Assembly: GCA_905221615.1 (NCBI GenBank)
Contig: CAJNDT010006131.1
Location: 32,501 to 96,500 of the forward strand
Source: Symbiodinium sp. CCMP2592
Taxonomy: Eukaryota; Sar; Dinophyceae; Suessiales; Symbiodiniaceae
DNA: 64,000 bases
Direction of reading: 5' to 3'
Of the stretch, positions 32,627 through 64,000 are shown one piece after another. Within the stretch, counting starts at the first letter, position 1; each line of letters begins with the position of its first letter. A program made the translations under genes and the position numbers. Under the pieces are notes generated by a model that was not told the DNA's origin, made no database searches, and worked only from the letters and a program-made list of their open reading frames with translations.

Positions 32627-32925
32627 TGACCTTGTCGGAGAAACTGTGATCTCCGACACTGAAGGGGGAGCGGGGGCTGCAACAGACAGGGAGGAGCAAC
32701 AACCACAACACCGTGAAACACCTTCATGCAACCTTCTCTTTACGGCAACACAGCATGCACCAACAACACCACAAGCCCACACCCTACAGCACCAGAGAGC
32801 GCAACCAAGAGAAGAGCAACTGTCAGTTCGTCTTGCTGAGAACAGTGCAGTTCTATGCCAGTGCCATGTGCAGTTCGCCTACGTACCTGCAGCCAGCACC
32901 TCGAGACTCAGCCAAACAAGCAGCC

Positions 32926-34538: not shown

Positions 34539-34946
34539 GAGGGAACTGAGCGCTCAAATGAGCCGAACCGGGGGAGGCCCTGCCGGTGCAGTAGAGTGCC
34601 GCAGTAGAGTGCCACATGTCGTATTCAGTCTGTCGTGTGTTTCCTTTGCACACTGCGCCTGGCCGGGACCTCAGCTTTCACCTGTAACCGCTCTTCCTTG
34701 TACTGAGCAAATTGGGGGAGATTGTTTTCGCTTGTTGTGTTGTGTTGTAGTGGGTACTTCGGTTTGCTTTGGGGGCGAATACAACTCCGCCGTGGTTGCA
34801 ATGGGCGACGAATAGTCACCAACACTGCACCCCTGGACAAACACTGACTGGGGGAACTTGTTTTCGTACAGCCGAGCCCTCTGGGGTCGTGAAACCCTTG
34901 GGGGGACATCGCCCCGCCAAGCGTTGCGGGTGTGCGGACCGCACGG

Positions 34947-38852: not shown

Positions 38853-39162
38853 ATGTCGCAGCGCACATCCGCAGCGGTGGCCCTGGGCGGCTTGGCCGGG
38901 TTGGCGTACCTGAGCTCGGGCAGCCAGACTTTCGCGGCCGCGCCGGCGACCGCGAACCTTCGCCATCAGCACACCGCCCAGACCGCGCAGGCGCCTTCTT
39001 CCTCGGCTTCGACATCTCTGCCGGCAATGATGGCTGGCGGTGCAGTTCTCGCCGCTGCGGCTGCCTCTGGACGTGCTAGCCGCTCGCATGGCAGCGCGCC
39101 CCTCCCCACCAGCGTGATGCCAGTGAGGAAGTCGGTCACAGCTCGCAGGGCCCTGGACCAGT
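38853..39162 (+). other. Plastid-targeting leader of gene A
   Basis: Residues 1 to about 103 before the mature Rubisco start ([11 protein letters not shown]). A hydrophobic signal-peptide-like segment ([14 protein letters not shown]) is followed by TFAAAP, close to the Phe-x-x-Pro motif often seen just after signal cleavage in dinoflagellate plastid leaders. A Ser/Thr/Ala-rich part and a second hydrophobic segment ([17 protein letters not shown]) come next. That is the class I (signal, transit, stop-transfer) layout expected for a three-membrane peridinin plastid. Genes B, C and D carry near-identical leaders at 45937, 55232 and 63786. Confidence 0.75.
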
Positions 39163-42100
39163 CCAGCCGCTATGCGGACCTCTCCCTGGATGAGGCGACG
39201 CTCATCAAGAACGGCAAGCACGTGCTGGTGGCTTACATCATGAAGCCGAAGGTCAGGAACCAAAGAGCCACCGACCCGTAAGCTTTTGGGCAGGATGTCC
39301 CTGCATGCCCGTAGTAGACCAGCTTAATCTAGGGTAGGGTTAGGGCCGGTTAGGGGATACCCACTGCCTCATGATTCGTGCCTGTGTTGTGTGCTGGCTG
39401 CGGTCCCGGATAGGCAGGCTACGACTACCTTGCCACCGCTGCGCACTTTGCTGCCGAGTCCTCCACCGGAACGAACGTGAACGTGTGCACCACGGATGAC
39501 TTCACCAAGTCTGTGGATGCCTTGGTCTACTACATCGACCCGGATAGTGAAGAGATGAAGATCCTTAGTAGCTGAGTGGATACACTTTACGCTTTTTGGG
39601 ATAATATTACCCACTACAAAACTGAAAGTATACACGTTTTTGGGCTTATGAACTCAGCAACTAAGGATCGCATATCCCACCTTGCTCTTCGACCGCAACA
39701 TCATTGATGGTCGTGGCATGATGTGCTCGTTCCTGACCCTGGCCATCGGAAACAACCAGGGCTGCTTTGCCAGCACTATCACACCCTCATGCATGTGGGT
39801 TGTGTCGCATGTAGCTGTCATAGGCGCTCCAAGAAAGTGTTTGGCATCAAGACTGATGGTAGGAGATCGCTTGAGGCATGGGCGACGTCGAGTACGGCAA
39901 GATCTACGACTTCTACCTGCCCCCGTCCTTCCTGCGCCTGTATGATGGGCCCGGCGTGAACGTGGAGGACATGTGGCGCATCCTGGGCAAGGGCACCAGC
40001 AACGGTGGTCTCGTGGTTGGAACCATCATCAAGCCCAAGCTCGGCCTGCAGCCCAAGCCTTTCGGCGAGGCCTGCTATGCCTTCTGGCAAGGCGGTGACT
40101 TCATCAAGAACGATGCTAAATTGTGCTGGAACAAAAGTTTTAAATAAGCTTTAACATTAACATGGTATATTCCAGATAGAGGGAGCAAGAAAATCGGTGG
40201 TTGAAGAGCCTCCATGCAGCCCAGGATGAGCCGCAGGGCAACCAGGTGTTCTGCCAGATGAACGAGTGCATCCCCGAGGTCGTGAAGGCCATGAGGGCTT
40301 GCATCAAGGAGACCGGTGTCGGCAAGCTGTTCTCGGCCAACATCACCGCGGATGATCCAAACGAGATGATCGCCCGCGGCAAGTACTGCATGTCCCAGTT
40401 CGGACCTCTGTCCGAGAACTGCGCCTTCTTGGTGGATGGATACGTCGCGGGAGGCACCGCTGTGACCTGCGCTCGCCGCAACTTCCCCAAGCAGTTCCTG
40501 CACTACCACCGAGCCGGCCACGGCTCCGTGACCAGCCCCCAGACCCAGCGTGGCTACACTGCCTTTGTCCACACCAAGATCTCTCGTGTTATCGGTGCCT
40601 CCGGCATCCACACCGGCACCATGAGCTTTGGCAAGATGGAGGGAGATGCCTCCGACAAGAACATTGCCTTCATGCTGCAGGACGATGAGGCCGATGGCCC
40701 CTACTACCACCAGGAGTGGGAGGGCATGAAGCAGACCACCCCCATCATTTCTGGTGGCATGAACGCGCTCCGCCTGCCGGCCTTCTTCGAGAACCTGGGC
40801 CACTCCAACGTGATCCTCACTGCCGGTGGCGGCGCCTTCGGCCACAAGGATGGACCCAAGCCTGGTGCCATCTCTTGCCGCCAGGGTGAGGAGGCCTGGA
40901 AGGCCTGGAAGGCTGGCCAGTACGGCAACATCAGCCTGAGTGACGGAGTGATTGAGTTCGCGAAGACCCACGAGGAGATCAAGGGTGCCTTCCTGACCTT
41001 CCAGAAAGATGCCGACCAGATCTACCCAGGATGGAAAGAGAAGCTGGGCTACACAGGCGAGTCCTCCGTGCAGGCTGCCAGCTTCGACTGGGCCAAGAAG
41101 GCGTCGGCCGCGGCCTTCGTCGGCGCCAGCGTGGCCCCTGCCAAGAAGGAGAGCAGCGTCTCGCGCAAGGCCCTGGACCAGTCCAGCCGATACGCGGACC
41201 TGTCCCTGGACGAGGCCACCCTGATCAAGAGACCAAGCTGCAAGTCGTGCTAGGAATGCTTGGGATTTGTCTGCACATAAACGATCCCACAGTTCGAGGT
41301 GCACGTGTGTACTGCCGTCCCAGGTGTGAGTGCATGTATCTCTAAGGAACGGCAAGCACGTGCTGGTGGCATACATCATGAAGCCGAAGGTCAGGAACCA
41401 AAGAGCCACCGAAACGTAAGCTTTTGGGCAGGATGTCCCTGCATGCCCGTGGTAGACCAGCTAATTCTAGGGTACAAGTGGTTGCGTTGAATCGTCCCGC
41501 CCTGTGTGAAGTCATCCCTTTTGCGCGTGGACATGGGGATAAGCATATCCTAGCCCTATTGAGTCAATGAGGCAGTATTCGTAAGTAGTCATGAAGTTTT
41601 GGCTGGTGGTTGCTTTAGATGGGTTGTAGCGCCTGTTCGTGATCTCGTCGCTAGGCTTCTCCTTGCGTGTCGATGGGGATTTACATGTCTAAAGTTCGAA
41701 CTTCAAAGATTGGTGGACTAGAGTGTCCAGAATGAGTGTGTTTTGTAAACATCTTGGGGCGGCGTCTATCTGCGGAACGGACAAACCAGTGCTATGTGCT
41801 TTGTAACACCTTCTGCGACGGCGTCTACTTGCAAAACTGTCGAACAGACTGTCTGGAATATGTGTTTTGTAACCGTTTCGGCGGCCGCATCTACTTGCAG
41901 AACGGAGCAAACGCAAGGGCTTTGCCGCGAAGACCTTCAGGAAAAAAGGGTTACACTACTTGTTACTTATATAAGCTTGCTATGCACAGGGGATCTGGGT
42001 CAGCCTGATCGGCGCTGAACACACCCACTAACGTTAAATACAGGGTTGGATAGGTTGGATAGGTTTTAAGAGCAGTATAGAGCGCTGAATAGGCTTTTGC

Positions 42101-45100
42101 TGTGATGCCAATGACGTGTCTTGAGCTTGTGCTTCTGAAATCGTGCGTCGGCTTGGGGAACTGGATCTGTTTTGGAAGGGCCATGATATCACACCGGAGG
42201 GTATCGTTCACCCCAATATTTAAATCTACGACCGGGTTTCGTTCAACCTGATGTAAAACTTGGAACCGGAATGGGAGCGGGTGGTGCATCCCTCGCGCCA
42301 GCGGGTGCTTGTGAAATCGAGCGTGTACATGGGGAATGGCTGCTTGTCGTGCACCGCGATGCTAATGATGTGTGTCTTGAGCGGGTGCTTCGAAAATCGA
42401 GCGTCTAGTTGGGGAATGGCTGGTTTTGGAGTGCTGTTTGTCTTGACCGGGTGCCTCTGAAAACGAGCGTCTACATGACATGGGGAACGACTGGTTTTCC
42501 TCAAGTCTGTGCACTGTGATGCCAATGATGTGGGTCTTGAGCGGGCGCTTGTGACCTGTCTGCAAGCGGAGCTGCCAACCTAGCAGACTTATCAGGGCTC
42601 CGGGACATAATTTCCAACGAAAACCTGTGTGTAGCACTCGAAATCCTAAGTTGACGTCTGCGCCAGGAATGTGCTAGGAAGCGCGTGGCCATGCGGAAAG
42701 CGATGTGCAGCCATGCTTGTGGTTTGACTTCAAACGCCCTGGTGTGACTTCGCGCGTTCCCACGTGACCATGCGGTGGCGCGACTTCACGCGCCCTGGGG
42801 CGACATAAAGCCACCTCTTGTAGGGTTAGGGTCGGTTAGGGGGCACCCGGATACCCACTGCCTCATGATTCTTGCTTGTGTTGTGTGCTGGCTGCGGTCC
42901 CGAACAGGCAGGCTACGACTACCTTGCCACCGCTGCGCACTTTGCTGCCGAGTCCTCCACCGGAACGAACGTGAACGTGTGCACCACGGATGACTTCACC
43001 AAGTCTGTGGATGCCTTGGTCTACTACATCGACCCGGATAGTGAAGAGATGAAGATCCTTAGTAGCTGAGTGGATACACTTTACGCTTTTTGGGATAATA
43101 TTACCCACTACAAAACTGAAAGTATACACGTTTTGGGGCTTATGAACTCAGCAACTAAGGATCGCATATCCCACCTTGCTCTTCGACCGCAACATCATTG
43201 ATGGTCGTGGCATGATGTGCTCGTTCCTGACCCTGGCCATCGGAAACAACCAGGGCTGCTTTGCCAGCACTATCACACCCTCGTGCATGTGGGTTGTGTC
43301 GCATGTAGCTGTCATAGGCGCTCCAAGAAAGTGTTTGGCATCAAGACTGATGGTAGGAGATCGCTTGAGGCATGGGCGACGTCGAGTACGGCAAGATCTA
43401 CGACTTCTACCTGCCCCCGTCCTTCCTGCGCCTGTATGATGGGCCCGGCGTGAACGTGGAGGACATGTGGCGCATCCTGGGCAAGGGCACCAGCAACGGT
43501 GGTCTCGTGGTTGGAACCATCATCAAGCCCAAGCTCGGCCTGCAGCCCAAGCCTTTCGGCGAGGCCTGCTATGCCTTCTGGCAAGGCGGTGACTTCATCA
43601 AGAACGATGCTAAATTGTGCTGGAACAAAAGTTTTAAATAAGCTTTAACATTAACATGGTATATTCCAGATAGAGGGAGCAAGAAAATCGGTGGTTGAAG
43701 AGCCTCCATGCAGCCCAGGATGAGCCGCAGGGCAACCAGGTGTTCTGCCAGATGAACGAGTGCATCCCCGAGGTCGTGAAGGCCATGAGGGCTTGCATCA
43801 AGGAGACCGGTGTCGGCAAGCTGTTCTCGGCCAACATCACCGCGGATGATCCAAACGAGATGATCGCCCGCGGCAAGTACTGCATGTCCCAGTTCGGACC
43901 TCTGTCCGAGAACTGCGCCTTCTTGGTGGATGGATACGTCGCGGGAGGCACCGCTGTGACCTGCGCTCGCCGCAACTTCCCCAAGCAGTTCCTGCACTAC
44001 CACCGAGCCGGCCACGGCTCCGTGACCAGCCCCCAGACCCAGCGTGGCTACACTGCCTTTGTCCACACCAAGATCTCTCGTGTTATCGGTGCCTCCGGCA
44101 TCCACACCGGCACCATGAGCTTTGGCAAGATGGAGGGAGATGCCTCCGACAAGAACATTGCCTTCATGCTGCAGGACGATGAGGCCGATGGCCCCTACTA
44201 CCACCAGGAGTGGGAGGGCATGAAGCAGACCACCCCCATCATTTCTGGTGGCATGAACGCGCTCCGCCTGCCGGCCTTCTTCGAGAACCTGGGCCACTCC
44301 AACGTGATCCTCACTGCCGGTGGCGGCGCCTTCGGCCACAAGGATGGACCCAAGCCTGGTGCCATCTCTTGCCGCCAGGGTGAGGAGGCCTGGAAGGCCT
44401 GGAAGGCTGGCCAGTACGGCAACATCAGCCTGAGTGACGGAGTGATTGAGTTCGCAAAGACCCACGAGGAGATCAAGGGTGCCTTCCTGACCTTCCAGAA
44501 AGATGCCGACCAGATCTACCCAGGATGGAAAGAGAAGCTGGGCTACACAGGCGAGTCCTCCGTGCAGGCTGCTAGCTTCGACTGGGCCAAGAAGGCGTCG
44601 GCCGCGGCCTTCGTCGGCTCCAGCTCGGTGGAGCGAACTCCCCAGGTTGCCCGTGCGGTCACTCCCTACGAGTTGAACGGGAACGTCCTCGCCGACTTGG
44701 AGTTCAGCAACGACATCGGCTACCTTCCGGATGGCACCCCTCTGAACAGGGCCGGCAACGCCATCAACCACCCGGAGAACATTGGTCCTGACAGCCATGC
44801 GCCTGGCTCGCCTTTGCCCCGTGCCAACTTCGTGAACTCCGTGGGCTACCTTCCTGATGGAACCCCGCTGAACAGGGCCGGCAACGCCATCAACCACCCG
44901 GAGACCATTGGCCCAGACATGCACACGCCTGGATCGCCGCTGCCTGCCTCCAGCTACAAGGCGGACATTGGCTATCTGGTGGATGGCACTGATCTGGCGA
45001 CGGCCGGCAACCTCTCCGTGCAGGGTGGTGCTGCGCCTGCGGCAGCACCAGCGGCGGCAGCTGCACCGGCCCCTGTGGTTGCAGCGGCCTTCGTCGGCTC

Positions 45101-45506
45101 CTCCGCAGCCACCCCCTCGAAGGTCAGGCATGCAGGAAACTTCGCGTATGGGTTCCAGAGAGACTCCTGGGCCGACTTGGAGTTCAGCAACGACATCGGC
45201 TACCTGCCGGATGGCACCCCCCTGAACAGGGCCGGCAACGCCATCAACCATCCGGAGAACATTCAGCCGGACAGCCATGCGCCGGGATCTCCCTTGCCTT
45301 CTGCCATCTTCGCGAACGACGTGGGCTACCTGCCGGATGGCACTCCGCTCAACAGGGCCGGCAACGCCATCAACCACCCGGAGAACATTGGCCCTGACAT
45401 GCACACGCCTGGCTCGCCGCTGCCTGCCTCCACTTACGCGCAGGACGTGGGCTACCTGGTGGACGGCACTCCCATGGAGACGGCCGGCAACCTCTCCGTC
45501 CAGTGA
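38853..45506 (+). CDS. rbcII: Form II Rubisco polyprotein gene A (two units plus repeat tail)
   Basis: Plastid CO2-fixing enzyme (RuBP carboxylase/oxygenase, L2-type). Exons: 38853-39251, 39414-39559, 39666-39760, 39876-40111, 40225-41228, 41347-41389, 42908-43053, 43160-43254, 43370-43605, 43719-45506; total 4188 bases, 1395 codons plus stop, in frame throughout. The leader is followed by Rubisco unit 1, a spacer ([15 protein letters not shown]), unit 2 and a 295-residue repeat tail. By Rhodospirillum rubrum numbering each unit keeps N111 (GNNQG), K166 (IIKPKLGL), carbamylated K191 with D193/E194 (DFIKNDE), H287 (HYHRAGH), loop-6 K329 (SFGKMEG) and the S368 loop (SGGMNALR). Intron 4 splits the codons of N192 and D193. 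Donors are GT, GA or GC; acceptors are AG|G. Intact and probably active. Confidence 0.93.
39564..39665. mobile_element. 102-bp TIR introner forming intron 2 of unit A1
   Basis: The element begins CTTAGTAGCTGAGT and ends ACTCAGCAACTAAG, a 14-bp terminal inverted repeat with one mismatch. It is flanked by GATC at 39560-39563 and 39666-39669. Removing 106 bases as a GA...AG intron (39560-39665) restores the Rubisco frame (EEMKIAYPT). The same site in gene B has a single GATC and no insert, so this is an intron born by DNA insertion. The centre is AT-rich and codes for nothing. Confidence 0.9.
41475..42820. mobile_element. 1.35-kb TIR element inside the inter-unit intron of gene A
   Basis: The intron 41390-42907 matches the short leader intron of gene A (39252-39413) at both ends but contains an extra 1346 bases between two TA dinucleotides (41473-41474 and 42821-42822). 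The element begins CAAGTGGTTGCGTTGAATCG; the reverse complement of its end begins CAAGAGGTGGCTTTATGTCG, 14 of 20 identical. It carries no transposase frame. Inside are roughly 60-bp tandem units (about 41735-41925) and GAGCGGGTGCTT-type repeats (about 42290-42560). It is likely a non-autonomous, TA-targeting DNA element. Confidence 0.7.
43058..43159. mobile_element. Introner copy in unit A2
   Basis: Same 102-bp TIR element as at 39564, with GATC at 43054-43057 and 43160-43163. Differences from the first copy are at most a few bases. Confidence 0.9.
44619..45503 (+). other. 295-residue repeat tail fused to Rubisco (gene A)
   Basis: In frame with the Rubisco C-terminus, right after AAAFVG. Two modules each hold two full 42-residue repeats of the form [20 protein letters not shown], then N/TIGPD(S/M)H(A/T)PGSPLP and a variable 8-residue joint, closed by a short third unit (GYLVDGT...TAGNLSVQ). 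The modules are separated by an Ala/Pro linker that ends again in AAAFVG. The second module begins with [16 protein letters not shown] recognise no known domain. Regular spacing and repeated hydrophobic GYL patches fit a multivalent binding or scaffold peptide, for example in the pyrenoid. Function is inferred only. Confidence 0.85.
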
Positions 45507-45936: not shown

Positions 45937-48900
45937 ATGTCGCAGCGCACGTCCGCAGCGGTGGCCCTGGGCGGCTTGGCCGGTTTGGCGTACCTAAGCT
46001 CGGGCAGCCAGACTTTCGCGGCCGCGCCGGCGACCGCGAACCTTCGCCATCAGCACACCGCCCAGACCGCGCAGGCACCTTCTTCCTCGGCTTCGACATC
46101 TCTGCCGGCAATGATGGCTGGCGGTGCAGTTCTCGCCGCTGCGGCTGCTTCTGGACGTGCTACCCGCTCGCATGGCAGTGCGCCCCTCCCCACCAGCGTG
46201 ATGCCTGTGAGGAAGTCGGTCACAGCTCGCAGGGCCCTGGACCAGTCCAGCCGCTATGCGGACCTCTCCTTGGATGAGGCGACGCTCATCAAGAACGGCA
46301 AGCACGTGCTGGTGGCTTACATCATGAAGCCGAAGGTCAGCAACCAAAGAGCCACCGAAACGTAAGCTTGTGGGCAGGATGTCGCTGCATATCCATGGTC
46401 TATCGGCTTACTCTAAGAGAGGGTGAGGGCAGGTTACGATGCAGGCGGGTAGGACGCTGCTCGATCACCCAAGCTGAGTCGTGACCAGAACCATGCTGAG
46501 CAGAGGCACCATGGACGGCACAAGCGGTCGAGGTCTTTTTTGCTACCTTCAGCAGTGTCTTGATCACTAAAGTTGCATACACACGACGTAGAGTGTGAGC
46601 AGCCGAGCGCATTACACTTGCATGCCCCCTTCCGGATCGGATTTTCGCGAAATCCTTTTTCATAATTTGACTCACCACTTTTGTCACTGCTGTTCGCCAA
46701 TGGTTCTATTCCTTCAGCTTTACTGCACCCGCAGAGCGCATGTTCTCGTCTTCGACGATGCACCAATGACCACCCATCATCTTGAAGAAGAGACAGAGCT
46801 CATGGCCAGCACCCTGCTTCGTCAAACTATTGGCCAAGTGGGCCTCTGAGTGCACCCGTCGGATTGGAGACAGCAGTTCAATTTTGGAGCACTTCTCCAG
46901 GGTCACGACCTCAGTTCGCAGTTTGTCATACACATTTTGCGAATCCGTCACAATGACCCCTACAACAGACTCCCGCGTCAGGACTTCGAACATCCACTTG
47001 ACCCTGCAACATGTCAGTCCACTGAAATCTAGCCAGATATAAGCTATCTTCCATGTCCACAGCTGCTTGGGATTCAGCTGCACCAGGACTCCGGCATGTT
47101 CTCTTAATCCTGTTGGAATGCCAAGCCACTAAGAACACCTTGCCCACATCACCTTGAAACATGCTTCGGGGTCCTAAATCCTAAGGCTATCAATATGCCA
47201 TGAGTGCTCTCACGGTCAGATCGGTTCTGGTTTGAGGCATCGACCCGAGCAAGCATACACAGTTCCTCTTCAGCCGGGAACTTATGAATGACAAGATCAT
47301 GCGACCTCGGGGCTCTCACAGCAGTTGATTAGCATCCATACTGGTCGAAACAGTACTTTGTGCCACTTCGGAAAGGAGTAGACTGACTGGTGCCGAGAAA
47401 TGCGGGGCCACTTGCTGGGCATGCCAGCTGATGGCTCCCAACGAAGGCTTCCACTGGGACTTCTCTCGTTCGGTAGTTTCCTGATCCTTTTCCCGGCATC
47501 TCCCAGAACTCGGCGGAATCCCTTCAATGATTTCCGCGTACTTGCTTTGAGACATGTTAAAGCCTTCTCCACGTTGGTCAGTCTGCACCCCGCTCTGAAC
47601 GAACCGATGGCATTCCCGGTCTGACCGCTTGAACTTTTCGCGAATCAGCTGCAGAACCTGCTGCCAACCTTGATCACTGGTTGCACTTCCAAACAGAAAG
47701 GCATCTACATGTCCTGAAATGCATCCTCGGAGCCTGCCTTCGGGTCGCCACATCCACATGCAAGGATCCGCCCACGATCTTCCCAGTCTTATGGATTCAA
47801 AAATTTCCGACGCTGTTCGGTACCACTCCAGTGGCGCATCCACCGGCCCATAACGGGCCTTTCTCAAACCGAGTGATGCTGCCTCGTTCTATGTTCATTG
47901 CGTCGCAGACCTCATCACACGGTATATAGTCAAGCTTGTCCGGATTGTCCCGGCTTTGTAAAAAAGGCTCCTGTGACATCTCCCTGCCAGACTTTCCAGG
48001 AACGGTTTGCAGATAGCTGAAGGAAAAGCTGTCTAGACAACCTCGTCAGTACCGAGGCCGAGACTTACCTAGTCCCGGATTTACTATTGATTCTGAGCAA
48101 GATCGCGGAGAAGGTGAAGCAACTGGAGTCTGTCAAGGATGTGGAGCCGAACTTGAACTTACATGCCAACGACCACGGACTCTGGAGATCAATCGGTATC
48201 CGCGAGTACCAGAACTGTATCCTGGCGAGGAACGTTACCTCAGACAACAGAGGAAACTTCGGAGCGAAGGAAAGCCATACGACAGGAAGGCGATCGAAGA
48301 CTCTGTAGAAAGGGACAACGAATGGATTCAGTGTCGCATCGACGCGGAGAAGGCGGACAAAGATGAGCGCGATTGAGACAAAGTTCGGATGGTTTGTAAA
48401 GAGTTTCATGACGTAGCGGAATGGTTTGTCATGGATGCCACAGACGAAGATAGTGACTGGCTTGTGGTAGTTGTCTGGCACAGACGTCCACCACGCCTCG
48501 GCAGCGAAGGTGGTTCCTACAGGATTAGTCCGTGCACTCCTGGACGGACGAAAGGCTTCTGAGGGTTCTGGGTTGCTTTCCATGGTGAAGAAGTCTAAAC
48601 CATGGAAACCCGCCAAAGGGGCTAGGCCTCGTCCTACTTATTCGGAACCTTGGGGAACCTCTTCCTGACTTGGGTCTTGAGCCCGATGCCATTCTTCGAC
48701 CTTTGGCAGCTTCAGATAGGTTTCCACCAATCTTTTCAACGACCCTGTTGTACGTCCGTGCATGGGGTTCCACCATCACTATCATCCTTGGCCAAGGTCT
48801 AAACTCTCAACCAAAACCGCGCCTGAAATCTGACCCTCTTTTCGAAACAATCGGACAGTCAAATCAGGGTTCCTTCCGAAAGCGTGCGGAATTAGTGAGA

Positions 48901-51900
48901 ACCCTCGAGTCTCTTCCCGGCTTTTAAAAATGTGCATAGCTGTTGACGGAGCTTCTTCGGCAGACAGGTCTGGGTGGTGCGTACAAATCTTTTCCATAAC
49001 TTGTTGGGTTCCTTGCACTGCTTGTTCGCGCACGCCAATCTGCCAATGGGAGTCAGCATGAATGAGATCAAGGTAGATCAAAGGTCTGTCGCAAAATGCC
49101 TGAACTTGTTGGCTTTGAAGACACCTGCCGGATCTAACCTCAAAGCTCCAGGCCATCCGAAAATCTGAGCCCAGCCTACCCGAAAGTAAGCCGGGCAAGT
49201 GGCAGCGTTTGGCTGCTGCTTACTGCCCGACTGAGAGTCTTCCCAATCCCAACATGAGTGCGCTCGGATGAACCCAATGATCTATACCAGCTGAGATCGT
49301 ATGCCACTTCGGTGGTAAGGTCTTGAGGGATGCTAAGTGGCAAACAGAGCATCGGAAATTGCGGGCTAGTTCCGCGGTATGCGTAGCGCTGCGGGCTTGA
49401 TGGTTTCAACCATAGTACGATGGCTTCCATGACCAGTGGCGGCATGGAGAAGATAAAGTTGCTTCAGGATTTGGGCCTCAGCTTACTACCCACGGACTTC
49501 CTCTCCTACCAGTGGCCTCGGGACCATTTGCGGCAGGACAGCTCTGGGTATTTCAGGTATGACCATCAACTCAAAACCCACATTCCGAAGTCCTTCCTTC
49601 ACCTCTCCGGAAGCCTCACGAATCCCTCTAATCACACAAGAACTCACAACTGTCCTGGTGCTTTCCCATGCTTCAGACTGCTGCCACATTGCGGGTGTGA
49701 AACGCATTACTTACTTGTTTCGTGCCATGGACTATGCTTTGATAAATGGTGCCGTCGAGCAAGATTCGAGGTTGTTGGTCTTTGAAAGTGGAGGCTGTTG
49801 CGGGTGATGTTGGATCCACAGCCCCCCTCTAGTGTAGGCATATAATATATATATATATATATCACGCAGTTGTCACAGGACTGATCAAAGCGCCTATCGG
49901 TGTACAAAACATTGTTGACATTCGCGACGATGGAAACTCGGGGAAGTCGTTGGGGATTGTGATGGTGAATGAGCTTGGGAACACCCATGTCCGGTTCGTA
50001 GTGCCATGCATGTTGCCGTACGAGTACAACCCAAGCACAACATACACAGACTTTTGATCACCCAGCGTTCGGCTATGCTTCACAGCAGGTTGAACAGGAA
50101 GTTGCTGCAACAAGTGCTCGCAATTTCGATGAGTGCGTTTGCCTTCCTTCTGCAGTACATCGGCTAACTTCTCAATGAGTTCCCGGGCCTCTAGGCTGAT
50201 TAGGGCCTCATTCTCTTCGTCCGTAATCGCACCTTCAAGAACCCCTTCAGAGCTATGACTCGACACATAACACCGTTGGCTCTTTTCCTGAAGGTCAAGT
50301 TGAGTTTAGAAGCTTTGCAGGCTACACATACGTCGTGGCACTTGGTTCTCGGTTGGCGGAGATCCACTCGGCAGTTAGGTCACTGCCGAATGCCGAATGC
50401 TATTTACACTTCTTAATCTTGGGGCTCGGCATGATGGTTTGGGAGCGAAGTGTCTAGAGGTCGTTGCTGCGAGCAGTCACGTTGTTCAGAAGGATCACCG
50501 AGCACAACTGTTGGTTTCGAAATCTTCAGTCTCGTTTCGTGGTGCTCTGCAAACACTGAGTCAAATGCGTGACATTCAAACCTAACTCTCTTCGAACTAC
50601 TTTCCTGAAGTGTCTCACCGGTTCACGTCACGGCCGTAAGAAGATGTCCTACTCTGTGATTAAACCCGTCTGCTGGTCTGTACGATGGCAGGAGTTGTCC
50701 CTACTTTTCGGTAGGACGGTTCTGCGCAAAGTCACTCAGCATCAGACTTTTTCGGCAGGGTCATCACTTGGTGGCCGGTTGCGGATCTCCTCAGCCTGAT
50801 GATTCGCTTCCTGTTCAACTTGCTCAAAACCGTCAGATCGTTCCTGAAATCCATCAGCGCTCCAAGACGTCAGAAAGGAGCACCGAACCCTTGCCCACGA
50901 TGCAAGCCATGAATCTTCATCTGTCCTGGCTGTCCTGACATCGGTCGCAGCTTGAGTTCCCAAAATTGTCTGGCCTACGTGCTTGACGGCCGCATCATCA
51001 TTCTCTTTGATGTTGCGTGCCATGTGCTTCTTCAGGGCGTAGTAGATCGGTCGCAGACTTTTGGAAGCCCCAAAGTTTATCACGCACTTGACCTGTGCCA
51101 CTGCCTCGGCTGTGGTCTGCACGGGGCTGCTGCTGCTCCAGGCACACTGCTCCTCGGGAACGTCCACGTGCATCACATTGGGGGCCTCTTCCTGCAACAT
51201 GGTGTTTGCCGATGACTTCAAAGGGTTCGGGAATGCTGGCGTAGTTGTCACCTGCCGCAGTCTGTCTGATTCCGTTCTTGCTGATCCAAGTTGGCGTTTT
51301 GAAGAAGTATCCAACCTTGAACGAAATCTGGTAGAAGTTCGGAAAGTGCCGGCTGGCTTGCCGAGCTCCTCGTTGATCGGGCCCAGCTCGACCATCCATC
51401 CCACCTTAACTGATTTAACTGGTTCTGCCAGTAACTGTAGCTGGACCGGGCAACTGGTACGCCATGAGGGGTCGGTCCACCCATGGTTCCTGTCACTGCC
51501 ATGACTAGCGCTCCGCCCTTGAGCCCCATCATCACCAGGTTCCGGCTTGCGATTCCATCGAGGTCCGACGGCTCCACATGGGTGCGTTGTAGGTCAGTGC
51601 CTCCTGGTAAAAGGCTTCGTTCTTCGGCTGGCCTTCAAGTACTTGTTCAAGTGTTCGGTCACTTCCATGATCCATGGCTGGCCTAGCCCTTGCCGAAAAT
51701 ACTCTGACAACCTGTCCACACCGCCGTGGTACGCCAGCCAGTGTGCTGGCTGACCGACGACATAGCGCCTCGCAACTCCTGTGAGTTCTGCTGCGATCTG
51801 GGGTCCTGCTTGAGCTCGTTTGTGACGTGGCACGGATTGTTCGTATAGCCGAGCTTTTTGTGCGAAATCCGTGTACGAGGGCGTATCTCCGTCCCACAAC

Positions 51901-54731
51901 GTCCCATCTTTATTTCGGGTCGGCTGCGCTGCTCCCACTAACAGATCGCCTTTGGCTTCTAACAGACGGCGACCTTCTCCTCGTGGCTTCCGTGGATTTC
52001 AAGCCTCATTCTTTGGAGCAACACTCTGCTACAATGCAAGCGTGTAGCACGCTGCACGATCACCCAAGCTGAATCGTGACCAGAACTATGCTCAGCAAAT
52101 ACAGTACGGACGGCACAGGCCTTCCAGGTCTTGTTTGCTACCCCAGCAGTCTCTTGATCACTAAAGTTGCATACACACCACATACCCACTGCTTCATGAT
52201 GCGTGCTTGTGTTGTGTGTTGGTTCGGGTCCCGAAAAGGCAGGCTACGACTACCTTGCCACCGCTGCGCACTTTGCTGCCGAATCCTCCACCGGAACGAA
52301 CGTGAACGTGTGCACCACGGATGACTTCACTAAGTCTGTGGATGCCCTGGTCTACTACATCGACCCGGATAGTGAAGAGATGAAGATCGCATATCCCACC
52401 TTGCTATTCGACCGCAACATCATCGATGGTCGTGGCATGATGTGCTCGTTCCTGACCCTGGCCATCGGAAACAACCAGGGCTGCTTTGCCAGCACTATCA
52501 CACCCTCATGCATGTGGGTTGTGTCGCATGTAGCTGTCATAGGCGCTCCAAGAAAGTGTTTGGCATCAAGACTGATGGTAGGAGATCGCTTGAGGCATGG
52601 GCGACGTCGAGTACGGCAAGATCTACGACTTCTACCTGCCCCCGTCCTTCCTGCGCCTGTATGATGGGCCCGGCGTGAACGTGGAGGACATGTGGCGCAT
52701 CCTGGGCAAGGGCACCAGCAACGGTGGTCTCGTGGTTGGAACCATCATCAAGCCCAAGCTCGGCCTGCAGCCCAAGCCTTTCGGCGAGGCCTGCTATGCC
52801 TTCTGGCAAGGCGGTGACTTCATCAAGAACGATGCTAAATTGTGCTGGAACAAAAGCTTCAAATAAGCTTTAACATTAACATGGTATATTCCAGATAGAG
52901 GGAGCAAGAAAATCGGTGGTTGAAGAGCCTCCATGCAGCCCAGGATGAGCCGCAGGGCAACCAGGTGTTCTGCCAGATGAACGAGTGCATCCCCGAGGTC
53001 GTGAAGGCCATGAGGGCTTGCATCAAGGAGACCGGTGTCGGCAAGCTGTTCTCGGCCAACATCACCGCGGATGATCCAAACGAGATGATCGCCCGCGGCA
53101 AGTACTGCATGTCCCAGTTCGGACCTCTGTCCGAGAACTGCGCCTTCTTGGTGGATGGATACGTCGCGGGAGGCACCGCTGTGACCTGCGCTCGCCGCAA
53201 CTTCCCCAAGCAGTTCCTGCACTACCACCGAGCCGGCCACGGCTCCGTGACCAGCCCCCAGACCCAGCGTGGCTACACTGCCTTTGTCCACACCAAGATC
53301 TCTCGTGTTATCGGTGCCTCCGGCATCCACACCGGCACCATGAGCTTTGGCAAGATGGAGGGAGATGCCTCCGACAAGAACATTGCCTTCATGCTGCAGG
53401 ACGATGAGGCCGATGGCCCCTACTACCACCAGGAGTGGGAGGGCATGAAGCAGACCACCCCCATCATTTCTGGTGGCATGAACGCGCTCCGCCTGCCGGC
53501 CTTCTTCGAGAACCTGGGCCACTCCAACGTGATCCTCACTGCCGGTGGCGGCGCCTTCGGCCACAAGGATGGACCCAAGCCTGGTGCCATCTCTTGCCGC
53601 CAGGGTGAGGAGGCCTGGAAGGCCTGGAAGGCTGGCCAGTACGGCAACATCAGCCTGAGTGACGGAGTGATTGAGTTCGCAAAGACCCACGAGGAGATCA
53701 AGGGTGCCTTCCTGACCTTCCAGAAAGATGCCGACCAGATCTACCCAGGATGGAAAGAGAAGCTGGGCTACACAGGCGAGTCCTCCGTGCAGGCTGCTAG
53801 CTTCGACTGGGCCAAGAAGGCGTCGGCCGCGGCCTTCGTCGGCTCCAGCTCGGTGGAGCGAACTCCCCAGGTTGCCCGTGCGGTCACTCCCTACGAGTTG
53901 AACGGGAACGTCCTCGCCGACTTGGAGTTCAGCAACGACATCGGCTACCTTCCGGATGGCACCCCTCTGAACAGGGCCGGCAACGCCATCAACCACCCGG
54001 AGAACATTGGTCCTGACAGCCATGCGCCTGGCTCGCCTTTGCCCCGTGCCAACTTCGTGAACTCCGTGGGCTACCTTCCTGATGGAACCCCGCTGAACAG
54101 GGCCGGCAACGCCATCAACCACCCGGAGACCATTGGCCCAGACATGCACACGCCTGGATCGCCACTGCCTGCCTCCAGCTACAAGGCGGACATTGGCTAT
54201 CTGGTGGATGGCACTGATCTGGCGACGGCCGGCAACCTCTCCGTGCAGGGTGGTGCTGCGCCTGCGGCAGCACCAGCGGCGGCAGCTGCACCGGCCCCAG
54301 TGGTTGCAGCGGCCTTCGTCGGCTCCTCCGCAGCCACCCCCTCGAAGGTCAGGCATGCAGGAAACTTCGCGTATGGGTTCCAGAGAGACTCCTGGGCCGA
54401 CTTGGAGTTCAGCAACGACATCGGCTACCTTCCAGATGGCACCCCTCTGAACAGGGCCGGCAACGCCATCAACCATCCGGAGAACATTCAGCCGGACAGC
54501 CATGCGCCGGGATCTCCCTTGCCTTCTGCCATCTTCGCGAACGACGTCGGCTACCTGCCGGATGGCACTCCGCTCAACAGGGCCGGCAACGCCATCAACC
54601 ACCCGGAGAACATTGGCCCTGACATGCACACGCCTGGCTCGCCGCTGCCTCCCTCCACTTACGCACAGGACGTGGGCTACCTTGTGGACGGCACTCCCAT
54701 GGAGACGGCCGGCAACCTCTCCGTCCAGTGA
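45937..54731 (+). CDS. rbcII: Form II Rubisco gene B (single unit plus repeat tail)
   Basis: Exons: 45937-46335, 52239-52479, 52595-52830, 52944-54731; 2664 bases, 887 codons plus stop, in frame. Leader, one complete Rubisco unit with all catalytic residues, then the same 295-residue tail (53844-54728). It differs from genes A and C in three ways: only one Rubisco unit; no intron 2 (exons 2 and 3 are fused across a single GATC at 52385-52388); and a 5.7-kb copia element in its first intron. Without that element the intron would be about 164 bases, like the 162-base first intron of gene A. It may show the array's older structure. Expression depends on splicing a 5.9-kb intron. Confidence 0.9.
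46440..46584 (-). repeat. 3' LTR of the copia element
   Basis: On the + strand it starts TGCAGGCGGG and ends near GTTGCATACACAC; it shares GATCACCCAAGCTGA and CTTGATCACTAAAGTTGC with the other LTR. TG...CA termini can be drawn. Confidence 0.75.
46706..47083 (-). pseudogene. Copia RNase H / polyprotein C-terminus (remnant)
   Basis: The minus-strand frame contains [20 protein letters not shown] and [20 protein letters not shown], typical of the RNase H end of dinoflagellate Ty1/copia polyproteins (the Asp-Ser-x-x-x-Tyr-Asp and His-x5-Asn-x-Leu-Thr-Lys patterns). The frame is damaged toward the reverse transcriptase. Confidence 0.75.
47316..47867 (-). pseudogene. Copia reverse transcriptase remnant
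   Basis: Reads [20 protein letters not shown], then [20 protein letters not shown] and [20 protein letters not shown], the conserved order of Ty1/copia RT (active-site block usually HVDD; here the second Asp is Ala, so inactive as read). Confidence 0.85.
48782..49198 (-). pseudogene. Copia integrase remnant
   Basis: Reads [20 protein letters not shown], then a stretch with [13 protein letters not shown] and [19 protein letters not shown]. This is the C-terminal part of the integrase core (the His-Trp-Gln-x-Gly-x-x-Glu block with the third catalytic Glu region, then the Gly-Arg-x-Pro block) typical of dinoflagellate copia elements. The zinc-binding part was not identified. Confidence 0.8.
50742..51938 (-). 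pseudogene. Copia gag-like region (remnant)
   Basis: Two overlapping minus-strand frames: one with [20 protein letters not shown] and [20 protein letters not shown], the other with [20 protein letters not shown]. These are characteristic of gag segments in dinoflagellate copia-like elements. At least one frameshift separates them. Confidence 0.65.
52035..52178 (-). repeat. 5' LTR of the copia element
   Basis: Partner of the repeat at 46440. Just inside it the minus strand reads TTGTAGCAGAGTG, which could be a primer-binding site of the initiator-Met tRNA kind used by copia elements. That match was judged by eye only. Confidence 0.75.
53844..54728 (+). other. Repeat tail of gene B
   Basis: Same 295-residue, two-module architecture as in gene A. 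Silent differences inside repeat copies (for example CTTCCAGATGGCACCCCTC near 54428-54446) match other repeats in the same tail, a sign of exchange between repeats. Confidence 0.85.
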
Positions 54732-55231: not shown

Positions 55232-58200
55232 ATGTCGCAGCGCACGACCGCAGCGGTGGCCCTGGGCGGCTTGGCCGGGATGGCGTACCTGAGCTCGGGT
55301 AGCCAGACTTTCGCGGCCGCGCCGGCGACGGCGAACCTTCGCCATCAGCACACCGCCCAGACCGCGCAGGCGCCTTCTTCCTCGGCTTCGACATCTCTGC
55401 CAGCAATGATGGCTGGCGGTGCAGTTCTCGCCGCTGCGGCTGCCTCTGGACGTGCTACCCGCTCGCATGGCAGCGCGCCCCTCCCCACCAGCGTGATGCC
55501 AGTGAGGAAGTCGGTCACAGCTCGCAGGGCCCTGGACCAGTCCAGCCGCTATGCGGACCTCTCCCTGGATGAGGCGACGCTCATCAAGAACGGCAAGCAC
55601 GTGCTGGTGGCTTACATCATGAAGCCGAAGGTCAGGAACCAAAGAGCCACCGAAAAGTAAGCTTTTGGGCAGGATGTCCCTGCATGCCCGTGGTAGACCA
55701 GCTAAATCTAGGGTACAAGTGGTTGCGTTGAATCGTCCCGCCCTGTGTGAAGTCATCCCTTTTGCGCGTGGACATGGGGATAAGCATATCCTAGCCCTAT
55801 TGAGTCAATGAGGCAGTATTCGTAAGTAGTCATGAAGTTTTGGCTGGTGGTTGCTTTAGATGGGTTGTAACGCCTGTTCGTGATCTCGTCGCTAGGCTTC
55901 TCCTTGCGTGTCGATGGGGATTTACATGTCTAACGTTCGAACTTCAAAGATTGGTGGACTAGAGTGTCCAGAATGAGTGTGTTTTGTAAACATCTTGGGG
56001 CGGCATCTATCTGCGGAACGGACAAACCAGTGCTATGTGCTTTGTAACACCTTCTGCGACGGCGTCTACTTGCAAAACTGTCGAACAGACTGTCTGGAAT
56101 ATGTGTTTTGTAACCGTTTCGGCGGCCGCATCTACTTGCAGAACGGAGCAAACGCAAGGGCTTTGCCGCGAAGACCTTCAGGAAAAAAAGGGTTACACTA
56201 CTTGTTACTTATATAAGCTTGCTATGCACAGGGGATCTGGGTCAGCCTGATCGGCGCTGAACACACCCACTAACGTTAAATACAGGGTTGGATAGGTTGG
56301 ATAGGTTTTAAGAGCAATATAGAGCGCTGAATAGGCTTTTGCTGTGATGCCAATGACGTGTCTTGAGCTTGTGCTTCTGAAATCGTGCGTCGGCTTCCCG
56401 AACTGGATCTGTTTTGGAAGGGCCATGATATCACACCGGAGGGTATCGTTCACCCCAATATTTAAATCTACGACCGGGTTTCGTTCAACCTGATGTAAAA
56501 CTTGGAACCGGAATGGGAGCGGGTGGTGCATCCCTCGCGCCAGGGGGTGCTTGTGAAATCGAGCGTGTACATGGGGAATGGCTGCTTGTCGTGCACCGCG
56601 ATGCTAATGATGTGTGTCTTGAGCGGGTGCTTCGAAAATCGAGCGTCTAGTTGGGGAATGGCTGGTTTTGGAGTGCTGTTTGTCTTGACCGGGTGCCTCT
56701 GAAAACGAGCGTCTACATGACATGGGGAACGACTGGTTTTCCTCAAGTATGTGCACTGTGATGCCAATGATGTGGGTCTTGAGCGGGCGCTTGTGACCTG
56801 TCTGCAAGCGCGTGCGCATGGTGATTAGCTGCCAACCTAGCAGACTTATCAGGGCTCCGGGACATAATTTCCAACGAAAACCTGTGTGTAGCACTCGAAA
56901 TCCTAAGTTGACGTCTGCGCCAGGAATGTGCTAGGAAGCGCGTGGCCATGCGGAAAGCGATGTGCAGCCATGCTTGTGGTTTGACTTCAAACGCCCTGGT
57001 GTGACTTCGCGCGTTCCCACGTGACCATGCGGTGGCGCGACTTCACGCGCCCTGGGGCGACATAAAGCCACCTCTTGTAGGGTTAGGGTCGGTTAGGGGG
57101 CACCCGGATACCCACTGCCTCATGATTCTTGCTTGTGTTGTGTGCTGGCTGCGGTCCCGAACAGGCAGGCTACGACTACCTTGCCACCGCTGCGCACTTT
57201 GCTGCCGAGTCCTCCACCGGAACGAACGTGAACGTGTGCACCACGGATGACTTCACCAAGTCTGTGGATGCCTTGGTCTACTACATCGACCCGGATAGTG
57301 AAGAGATGAAGATCCTTAGTAGCTGAGTGGATACACTTTACGCTTTTTGGGATAATATTACCCACTACAAAACTGAAAGTATACACGTTTTGGGGCTTAT
57401 GAACTCAGCAACTAAGGATCGCATATCCCACCTTGCTCTTCGACCGCAACATCATTGATGGTCGTGGCATGATGTGCTCGTTCCTGACCCTGGCCATCGG
57501 AAACAACCAGGGCTGCTTTGCCAGCACTATCACACCCTCATGCATGTGGGTTGTGTCGCATGTAGCTGTCATAGGCGCTCCAAGAAAGTGTTTGGCATCA
57601 AGACTGATGGTAGGAGATCGCTTGAGGCATGGGCGACGTCGAGTACGGCAAGATCTACGACTTCTACCTGCCCCCGTCCTTCCTGCGCCTGTATGATGGG
57701 CCCGGCGTGAACGTGGAGGACATGTGGCGCATCCTGGGCAAGGGCACCAGCAACGGTGGTCTCGTGGTTGGAACCATCATCAAGCCCAAGCTCGGCCTGC
57801 AGCCCAAGCCTTTCGGCGAGGCCTGCTATGCCTTCTGGCAAGGCGGTGACTTCATCAAGAACGATGCTAAATTGTGCTGGAACAAAAGTTTTAAATAAGC
57901 TTTAACATTAACATGGTATATTCCAGATAGAGGGAGCAAGAAAATCGGTGGTTGAAGAGCCTCCATGCAGCCCAGGATGAGCCGCAGGGCAACCAGGTGT
58001 TCTGCCAGATGAACGAGTGCATCCCCGAGGTCGTGAAGGCCATGAGGGCTTGCATCAAGGAGACCGGTGTCGGCAAGCTGTTCTCGGCCAACATCACCGC
58101 GGATGATCCAAACGAGATGATCGCCCGCGGCAAGTACTGCATGTCCCAGTTCGGACCTCTGTCCGAGAACTGCGCCTTCTTGGTGGATGGATACGTCGCG

Positions 58201-61200
58201 GGAGGCACCGCTGTGACCTGCGCTCGCCGCAACTTCCCCAAGCAGTTCCTGCACTACCACCGAGCCGGCCACGGCTCCGTGACCAGCCCCCAGACCCAGC
58301 GTGGCTACACTGCCTTTGTCCACACCAAGATCTCTCGTGTTATCGGTGCCTCCGGCATCCACACCGGCACCATGAGCTTTGGCAAGATGGAGGGCGATGC
58401 CTCCGACAAGAACATTGCCTTCATGCTGCAGGACGATGAGGCCGATGGCCCCTACTACCACCAGGAGTGGGAGGGCATGAAGCAGACCACCCCCATCATT
58501 TCTGGTGGCATGAACGCGCTCCGCCTGCCGGCCTTCTTCGAGAACCTGGGCCACTCCAACGTGATCCTCACTGCCGGTGGCGGCGCCTTCGGCCACAAGG
58601 ATGGACCCAAGCCTGGTGCCATCTCTTGCCGCCAGGGTGAGGAGGCCTGGAAGGCCTGGAGGTCCGGACAGTACGGCAACATCAGCCTGAGCGATGGCGT
58701 CATCGAGTTCGCCAAGACGCACGAGGAGATCAAGGGTGCCTTCCTGACCTTCCAGAAAGATGCCGACCAGATCTACCCAGGATGGAAAGAGAAGCTGGGC
58801 TACACAGGCGAGTCCTCCGTGCAGGCTGCTAGCTTCGACTGGGCCAAGAAGGCGTCGGCCGCGGCCTTCGTCGGCGCCAGCGTGGCCCCTGCCAAGAAGG
58901 AGAGCAGCGTCTCGCGCAAGGCCCTGGACCAGTCCAGCCGATACGCGGACCTGTCCCTGGACGAGGCCACCCTGATCAAGAGACCAAGCTGCAAGTCGTG
59001 CTAGGAATGCTTGGGATTTGTCTGCACATAAACGATCCCACAGTTCGAGGTGCACGTGTGTACTGCCGTCCCAGGTGTGAGTGCATGTATCTCTAAGGAA
59101 CGGCAAGCACGTGCTGGTGGCATACATCATGAAGCCGAAGGTCAGGAACCAAAGAGCCACCGAAACGTAAGCTTTTGGGCAGGATGTCCCTGCATGCCCG
59201 TGGTAGACCAGCTAATTCTAGGGTACAAGTGGTTGCGTTGAATCGTCCCGCCCTGTGTGAAGTCATCCCTTTTGCGCGTGGACATGGGGATAAGCATATC
59301 CTAGCCCTATTGAGTCAATGAGGCAGTATTCGTAAGTAGTCATGAAGTTTTGGCTGGTGGTTGCTTTAGATGGGTTGTAGCGCCTGTTCGTGATCTCGTC
59401 GCTAGGCTTCTCCTTGCGTGTCGATGGGGATTTACATGTCTAAAGTTCGAACTTCAAAGATTGGTGGACTAGAGTGTCCAGAATGAGTGTGTTTTGTAAA
59501 CATCTTGGGGCGGCGTCTATCTGCGGAACGGACAAACCAGTGCTATGTGCTTTGTAACACCTTCTGCGACGGCGTCTACTTGCAAAACTGTCGAACAGAC
59601 TGTCTGGAATATGTGTTTTGTAACCGTTTCGGCGGCCGCATCTACTTGCAGAACGGAGCAAACGCAAGGGCTTTGCCGCGAAGACCTTCAGGAAAAAAAG
59701 GGTTACACTACTTGTTACTTATATAAGCTTGCTATGCACAGGGGATCTGGGTCAGCCTGATCGGCACTGAACACACCACTAACGTTAAATACAGGGTTGG
59801 ATAGGTTGGATAGGTTTTAAGAGCAATATAGAGCGCTGAATAGGCGTTTGCTGTGATGCCAATGACGTGTCTTGAGCTTGTGCTTCTGAAATCGTGCGTC
59901 GGCTTCCCGAACTGGATCTGTTTTGGAAGGGCCATGATATCACACCGGAGGGTATCGTTCACCCCAATATTTAAATCTACGACCGGGTTTCGTTCAACCT
60001 GATGTAAAACTTGGAACCGGAATGGGAGCGGGTGGTGCATCCCTCGCGCCAGCGGGTGCTTGTGAAATCGAGCGTGTACATGGGGAATGGCTGCTTGTCG
60101 TGCACCGCGATGCTAATGATGTGTGTCTTGAGCGGGTGCTTCGAAAATCGAGCGTCTAGTTGGGGAATGGCTGGTTTTGGAGTGCTGTTTGTCTTGACCG
60201 GGTGCCTCTGAAAACGAGCGTCTACATGACATGGGGAACGACTGGTTTTCCTCAAGTCTGTGCACTGTGATGCCAATGATGTGGGTCTTGAGCGGGCGCT
60301 TGTGACCTGTCTGCAAGCGCGTGCGCATGGTGATTAGCTGCCAACCTAGCAGACTTATCAGGGCTCCGGGACATAATTTCCAACGAAAACCTGTGTGTAG
60401 CACTCGAAATCCTAAGTTGACGTCTGCGCCAGGAATGTGCTAGGAAGCGCGTGGCCATGCGGAAAGAGATGTGCAGCCATGCTTGTGGTTTGACTTCAAA
60501 CGCCCTGGTGTGACTTCGCGCGTTCCCACGTGACCATGCGGTGGCGCGACTTCACGCGCCCTGGGGCGACATAAAGCCACCTCTTGTAGGGTTAGGGTCG
60601 GTTAGGGGGCACCCGGATACCCACTGCCTCATGATTCTTGCTTGTGTTGTGTGCTGGCTGCGGTCCCGAACAGGCAGGCTACGACTACCTTGCCACCGCT
60701 GCGCACTTTGCTGCCGAGTCCTCCACCGGAACGAACGTGAACGTGTGCACCACGGATGACTTCACCAAGTCTGTGGATGCCTTGGTCTACTACATCGACC
60801 CGGATAGTGAAGAGATGAAGATCCTTAGTAGCTGAGTGGATACACTTTACGCTTTTTGGGATAATATTACCCACTACAAAACTGAAAGTATACACGTTTT
60901 GGGGCTTATGAACTCAGCAACTAAGGATCGCATATCCCACCTTGCTCTTCGACCGCAACATCATTGATGGTCGTGGCATGATGTGCTCGTTCCTGACCCT
61001 GGCCATCGGAAACAACCAGGGCTGCTTTGCCAGCACTATCACACCCTCATGCATGTGGGTTGTGTCGCATGTAGCTGTCATAGGCGCTCCAAGAAAGTGT
61101 TTGGCATCAAGACTGATGGTAGGAGATCGCTTGAGGCATGGGCGACGTCGAGTACGGCAAGATCTACGACTTCTACCTGCCCCCGTCCTTCCTGCGCCTG

Positions 61201-63785: not shown

Positions 63786-64000
63786 ATGTCGCAGCGCACG
63801 ACCGCAGCGGTGGCCCTGGGCGGCTTGGCCGGGTTGGCGTACCTGAGCTCGGGCAGCCAGACTTTCGCGGCCGCGCCGGCGACCGCGAACCTTCGCCATC
63901 AGCACACCGCCCAGACCGCGCAGGCGCCTTCTTCCTCGGCTTCGACATCTCTGCCGGCAATGATGGCTGGCGGTGCAGTTCTCGCCGCTGCGGCTGCCTC
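63786..64000 (+). CDS. rbcII: Form II Rubisco gene D, leader exon (cut by window end)
   Basis: The first 71 codons of another leader exon, starting [20 protein letters not shown]. It is near-identical to those of genes A to C, so the array continues to the right. The number of Rubisco units in D cannot be seen. Confidence 0.9.
   Translation, partial: MSQRTTAAVALGGLAGLAYLSSGSQTFAAAPATANLRHQHTAQTAQAPSSSASTSLPAMMAGGAVLAAAAA

Follow-up and report, generated by a model that had tools for sequence, protein, structure and literature searches.

Repeat tail of the Rubisco polyprotein

The ribulose bisphosphate carboxylase/oxygenase (Rubisco) genes in a 64,000-nucleotide stretch of the genome of the dinoflagellate Symbiodinium sp. 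CCMP2592 (contig C5269, positions 32501-96500 of a 1.1-Gb genome; hereafter the window, in which all positions are counted unless C5269 is named) end in a repeat tail. Rubisco gene A (38853..45506, forward strand) consists, according to landmarks, sequence and Pfam matches, of a presequence, two form II coding units with end motifs at 41074 and 44568, and a C-terminal tail of six repeats and 295 amino acids (44619..45503, forward strand; stop codon 45504-45506). Judged by sequence comparison, this tail represents one version of a plastid module of dinoflagellates with repeats in a 42-residue register, found at the end of the Rubisco polyprotein, in free multi-repeat proteins and in fusions with iota-carbonic anhydrase and CSP41b. 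The module probably serves as a code for pyrenoid assembly or targeting, with a pattern like that of EPYC1, PYCO1 and the Rubisco-binding motif of Chlamydomonas.

The initial annotation had described three complete Rubisco genes, each ending in an in-frame tail of 295 residues built of 42-residue repeats in two modules. Translations, reading frames and shuffling bore out the tails: 295 amino acids are read openly at each of 44619-45503, 53844-54728 and 62385-63269. The tail of gene A follows in frame after the RuBisCO_large domain (PF00016, E=1.9e-83) within a single frame of 610 amino acids with a terminal stop, and the second and third tails also lie within 610-amino-acid frames, behind an identical Rubisco end at 53793 and 62334. 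The count of three complete genes with tails was right as well, with the correction that the window holds five Rubisco coding units, of which genes A, B and C carry two, one and two. Only the last unit of each complete gene bears a tail; behind an inner unit come a short spacer and then another unit.

The last unit of gene A closes with a segment of 17 residues containing the boundary motif AAAFVG (44568..44618, forward strand, assigned by landmarks), and the AAAFVG string is also present at the end of the inner unit and between the two tail modules. Module 1 (44691..45023, forward strand) has repeat cores at 44718, 44844 and 44970, and module 2 (45171..45503, forward strand) at 45198, 45324 and 45450. 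Each module comprises three repeats, a full repeat measuring 42 residues and the third repeat being shortened. The core of the repeat could be written as a segment of 23 residues, and the GYL[PV]DGT cores are spaced 126 bases apart inside each module. All 18 occurrences of the GYL[PV]DGT pattern in the window fall inside the three tails, with none on the opposite strand. The tail repeats are far above chance: when the tail was compared with itself, 97 residues were identical at an offset of 42 and 101 at one of 160, and 2000 shuffles over offsets 20-199 never exceeded 40.

The enzyme part is form II Rubisco by its sequence. The Rubisco unit of the window matches PF00016 and aligns with the relative P0146 at at least 95% (fourth gene), and P0146 matched the form II profile NF010002 above the cut-off (E=3.5e-227), with the general and form III models far behind.

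The module in other proteins

A collection of 5.8 billion proteins, searched three times, yielded 181, 122 and 63 matches, of which the best 120, 120 and 63 were taken. Their union, excluding the window's own proteins, amounted to 222 matches, which were classed by BLAST against five reference domains. Among these matches listed, the partner was form II Rubisco in 89, iota-carbonic anhydrase in 13, CSP41b in six, phosphoglycerate kinase in one and cupin in one, and 112 had none; since all queries were tail sequences, these shares are biased towards such tails and are silent on how often dinoflagellate Rubisco is tail-less. The class of 112 contains free proteins together with fragments and partial or merged gene models. 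Successive cores among the matches listed were 42 residues apart in 440 cases and 44 residues apart in 65, the next class occurring 12 times. Their named sources include several Symbiodinium species, Durusdinium trenchii, Cladocopium goreaui, Effrenium voratum and Polarella glacialis. The genome of the window itself encodes six Rubisco genes with a tail, five long repeat-only frames, two loci of iota-carbonic anhydrase fusions and one CSP41b locus. By these assignments the repeat is not exclusive to Rubisco.

Two observations had been named in the initial annotation as grounds for abandoning its proposal, namely similarity of the tail to a known unrelated family and a lack of transcripts spanning the Rubisco/tail junction. 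Neither was made. The best Pfam matches of the tail had E-values of 0.094 and 0.22 and the best match to solved structures 0.54, all taken as chance, and tblastn of the tail against a plasmid collection gave no match. Of the 89 listed Rubisco proteins with a tail, 41 cross the position of the last intron of the window gene, some of these being predicted gene models and seven coming from contigs of only 2.0-2.5 kb; because they read across this position, Rubisco and tail are joined in spliced sequences of relatives. In five of the 89 (P0152, P0153, P0197, P0215 and P0223) a repeat already stands ahead of the point where the Rubisco match ends; these five resemble merged neighbours or chimeras, and were kept in the count and not used as an argument. 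A carbohydrate-binding reading of the tail was rejected, the matches to CelD_N and CBM_5_12_2 reaching E-values of only 0.03 to 0.22. P0138, P0149, P0151 and P0160, where the repeat stands beside ankyrin, pentatricopeptide repeat, ribosomal and other parts, were not called fusions, being possible merged gene models, and were left among the proteins with no partner.

The partner in the anhydrase fusions is, by sequence, an iota-carbonic anhydrase. The anhydrase domain of P0159 matched the Bigelowiella enzyme 7c5x with E=1.6e-223 and with the HHSS motif (LHHSS) aligned, the motif by which passages of PMC8425729 define iota-carbonic anhydrases; the profile NF047901 was matched with E=7.3e-60, but under its curated cut-off. 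Two loci on contig C5251 of the same genome carry a three-repeat module and the start of an iota-carbonic anhydrase in one open frame, with more anhydrase and module pieces downstream. In P0150 of S. necroappetens the order is module, two anhydrase domains, module. On contig C2924, the end of CSP41b is matched over 17 residues by a frame behind which lie two tail frames of nearly the same sequence (L018 3939-4451 and 4555-5145), a candidate case of recent exon duplication or of alternative last exons. CSP41B of Chlamydomonas is placed in the pyrenoid matrix in the relevant part of PMC8633747, and an iota-carbonic anhydrase of a diatom is described as chloroplast-localised and made at low CO2 in the corresponding part of PMC8425729. 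P0199 is a single sequence in which the module is fused to phosphoglycerate kinase, a Calvin-cycle enzyme; this fusion and that with cupin are leads only, each being one sequence with one member.

Of the 112 matches listed with no partner, 32 start with methionine and have a leader of 55-140 residues with a hydrophobic stretch, as judged by a crude hydrophobicity test, and 16 of the 32 contain the motif F[VLA][AVT]P; of these 32, P0200 and P0210 do not resemble the rest. Clean free examples have 3, 6, 9 or 12 repeats. The Rubisco array is followed directly downstream by a repeat-only gene, whose first frame is C5269:103316-105649 and whose last exon is probably near C5269:107606-107785; it is composed of a presequence, the tail start and four modules. 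Its Rubisco-type presequence is joined straight to the 11 residues of the tail start, with no Rubisco between. DNA identity amounts to 80-81% with the Rubisco presequence and 81% with the tail, the tail match beginning at window position 44631. P0128 of a relative shows the same architecture. Four further long repeat-only frames (11-14 repeats) were found on contigs C2046 and C3257, and the five repeat-only frames of the genome measure 631-801 amino acids with 11-14 repeats. These genes suggest that a tail can occur without being joined to Rubisco and that the module functions unattached.

Selection and conservation

Substitution patterns indicate that the tail is under purifying selection. 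The three window tails differ pairwise by 9, 3 and 11 bases, of which 1, 0 and 1 are nonsynonymous; the first and third are identical in protein sequence and the second differs by one residue. Between module 1 and module 2 the synonymous divergence (dS) is 0.33 and the nonsynonymous divergence (dN) 0.084, and between single repeats dS is 0.33-0.64 and dN 0.08-0.21. The coding-unit exons within the array differ by only 0-12 bases, and on this comparison the near-identity of the three tails is partly due to homogenisation of the tandem array. Because of this contribution it is weak evidence alone, and the identity of the tails was set aside as proof of function. Conservation across species is, in the sequences compared, the stronger evidence: the mean frequency of the commonest residue in 33 aligned Rubisco proteins was 0.93 for Rubisco, 0.75 for the tail and 0.56 for the junction. 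A first alignment (A1) served only to list conserved columns.

Comparison with known linkers and proposed function

EPYC1 of Chlamydomonas and PYCO1 of a diatom are separate linker proteins with evenly spaced Rubisco-binding motifs. EPYC1 binds the small subunit of Rubisco, and form II Rubisco has no small subunit. EPYC1 is also basic and not fused to Rubisco, and its motif is known only from Volvocales, whereas the tail is acidic; the likeness is one of pattern. In both systems evenly spaced motifs occur in a repeat protein and the same motif occurs on other proteins of one compartment, the motif in Chlamydomonas being common to EPYC1, SAGA1/2 and RBMP1/2 according to sections of PMC10473226. 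Likewise, among the 222 matches listed and the loci of the window's own genome, one motif was found on the candidate for gathering Rubisco and on other proteins. Of the features of an EPYC1/PYCO1-type linker, regular repeats were found in the tail, and a high isoelectric point (pI) and the KWSP(R) sticker were not, the sole tryptophan sitting in RDSWADL. The free forms have presequence-like leaders and the neighbouring gene a Rubisco-type presequence, which makes them candidates, by sequence only, for plastid targeting.

Repeats with conserved tyrosine-containing and sticker motifs are shared with PYCO1 of Phaeodactylum, which condenses Rubisco (parts of PMC10288592). The repeats of PYCO1, as given there, are about 80 residues long with a KWSPR sticker and a pI of 10.03, and those of the tail stand in a 42-residue register, with a pI of 4.57, on Rubisco itself. 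The carboxysome scaffolds CsoS2 and CcmM also gather Rubisco through multivalent repeats (portions of PMC13159521); they belong to a bacterial shell compartment, and their likeness to the tail is one of description. The Rubisco polyprotein of Prorocentrum has tandem form II units, short spacers and an AAA boundary, as described in part of PMC3747160.

The occurrence of one repeat on iota-carbonic anhydrase, CSP41b and free plastid-type proteins makes a pyrenoid role of the module more likely. Rubisco, the anhydrase, CSP41b and the free proteins would then be found together in the pyrenoid, and the repeats would there make multivalent contacts, with Rubisco, among themselves or both, that bring the enzyme and its partners together. 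Candidate contact segments are the conserved GYLPDGT core and the NHPE segment. A possible docking site would be the inserts in the C-terminal domain of dinoflagellate Rubisco, which a portion of PMC8395205 proposes to bind an unknown partner.

Several observations weigh against this reading. The acidity of the tail (pI 4.57) stands against a pI of 10.03 for PYCO1, and a charge/hydropathy rule places the window tail on the ordered side and a Polarella tail on the disordered side. The Prorocentrum polyprotein ends, in the portion of PMC3747160 that describes it, with Leu-Ser-stop and no repeat tail. A tree of 200 modules, which speaks for the reading by setting Rubisco tails next to free ones in a number of lineages (P0116/P0122/P0176, P0120/P0175, P0064/P0096, and P0128 with the window tail), has only 117 columns, 61 open forks and an unsettled bootstrap. 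Furthermore, all seven other (non-Symbiodinium) polyproteins showing both junctions have no arginine after the alanine run where the coding unit meets the tail, unlike the spacers between coding units, which have it in 8 of 8 cases; the tail may therefore stay attached in these polyproteins. Structure prediction could add little: the model of the tail had a predicted local distance difference test (pLDDT) score of 38.6, and in a second model, of Rubisco with its tail, the mean was 31.1 and Rubisco itself failed, so that the low score of the tail means little as a sign of disorder, a feature of EPYC1/PYCO1-type linkers.

Extended to peridinin dinoflagellates in general, one module would be the common assembly code of the form II Rubisco pyrenoid. 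The Rubisco tail would deliver it, free proteins of 3 to 12 repeats would add valency, and iota-carbonic anhydrase and CSP41b (in some taxa perhaps phosphoglycerate kinase) would be recruited by carrying it, with release or tethering of the tail depending on the lineage. This fuller picture is given somewhat less than an even chance. The module is a concrete and purifiable candidate for gathering form II Rubisco in coral-symbiont dinoflagellates, and the prediction follows that module-bearing proteins, including a carbonic anhydrase, should meet in the pyrenoid. If this is true, there would be a pyrenoid whose Rubisco carries its own scaffold code and whose matrix may contain a carbonic anhydrase. 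A section of a pyrenoid review (PMC10473226) raises as an open question how general the sharing of Rubisco-binding motifs is. The candidate novelty here is a pyrenoid-type motif system that has Rubisco itself and a carbonic anhydrase among its bearers; no title or abstract opening on this repeat or on a dinoflagellate linker was found in the open-licence literature of PubMed Central, which is not proof that it is unpublished.

Release or attachment of the tail, and alternative roles

In Symbiodinium sp. CCMP2592 the Rubisco/tail junction resembles the end of a transit peptide and may be processed likewise. A junction element of ten residues (44631..44660, forward strand) is a candidate processing region, as repeat-only genes have it too, right behind their presequence. 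In another lineage, the junction between Rubisco and tail in P0176 is nearly identical to the presequence end of the free proteins P0116 and P0122 (scores 168 and 173, against a maximum of 50 in 2106 shuffled comparisons). Cutting of the tail from the last Rubisco unit near the AAAFVG motif and the ten-residue element has about an even chance, and, on equally balanced grounds, the Rubisco gene would after cutting co-produce a linker and not a tethered enzyme. In Polarella-like taxa the junction is without that element, and the tail may stay attached.

The initial annotation had proposed a built-in scaffold, with the tail staying covalently on the last Rubisco unit, its repeats binding neighbouring Rubiscos and the fusion setting the ratio of linker to enzyme. 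Such a scaffold shares the pyrenoid role with the preferred reading and differs from it in topology, so the probabilities of the two overlap. Tail and enzyme do form one frame, and one spliced sequence in relatives, and the seven non-Symbiodinium junctions without the arginine are short. Against this, the window junction has AAAFVG together with the ten-residue element that stands directly behind the presequence in the repeat-only neighbour, and free linkers are encoded in the same genome. The pyrenoid part of the proposal gains from the shared repeat, and its built-in part is doubtful. Doubtful as well is a genetically fixed ratio, since free copies are encoded separately, one of them beside the array, and the number of Rubisco units per tail varies from 1 to 2.

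A general plastid module for clustering or anchoring, which would recruit Rubisco, carbonic anhydrase and further proteins to a surface such as the thylakoid, the starch sheath or a Calvin-cycle enzyme complex and would not condense Rubisco, looks distinctly unlikely. The partners are diverse, as it would predict, and the divergent short-repeat relatives L026, P0216 and P0217 end in a hydrophobic C-terminal stretch. However, Rubisco accounts for 89 of the 110 recognised partners listed, though a search that starts from a Rubisco tail is biased towards this outcome; Chlamydomonas CSP41B belongs to the matrix in the account given in part of PMC8633747; and no surface- or carbohydrate-binding family was significant in the tail searches. 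Very improbable is a removable helper that would aid import, folding or cleavage of the polyprotein and then be degraded: AAAFVG-type motifs do recur at several domain boundaries, but such a helper would be superfluous for repeat-only proteins that bring a presequence of their own, the regular spacing and the purifying selection point to a function that lasts, and the Prorocentrum polyproteins end without a tail in the portion of PMC3747160 concerned.

Gene array and further observations

Presequences in the array start at 38853, 45937, 55232 and 63786. Rubisco gene B (45937..54731, forward strand) was delimited by landmarks and has a presequence, a long stretch without Rubisco landmarks, one coding unit and the tail at 53844-54728. 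Rubisco gene C (55232..63272, forward strand), likewise from landmarks, has a presequence, two coding units and the tail at 62385-63269. Of gene D only the start lies in the window (63786..64000, forward strand); past its end follow two units, a fourth tail at C5269:102045-102929 and then the repeat-only gene. The 20 kb immediately upstream of the window (L027 and L028) contain no frame of at least 30 amino acids with Rubisco or repeat similarity. Also upstream of the Rubisco array, a run of long overlapping frames (28775-34815, forward strand) is probably a decayed retroelement by its sequence; the frame 31488-32471 gave a sub-threshold match to the reverse transcriptase family PF00078 (E=3.3e-05, 24.1 bits against a cut-off of 29.6).

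Several public 'Rubisco' entries are repeat-only proteins in which no Rubisco domain was found, namely P0007, P0011, P0019 and P0133, publicly named rbcL or ribulose bisphosphate carboxylase. In P0175, a EukProt transcript, the Rubisco tail is followed by about 115 more residues that are charge-rich and coiled-coil-like, with a precomputed match to PF27720. Degenerate copies of the module, probably decaying duplicates by their sequence, are scattered through the genome (L019, L020, L022, L023 and L025 on contigs C299, C3979, C5127 and C1391). L026 3954-5309 (contig C203), P0210, P0216 and P0217 are divergent proteins whose three repeats are short and degenerate and which have a hydrophobic stretch close to the C-terminus; they are possibly membrane-anchored relatives of the module. 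A frame of 416 residues (L021 4742-5989, contig C476) carries a 56-residue variant of the repeat, as an independent expansion.

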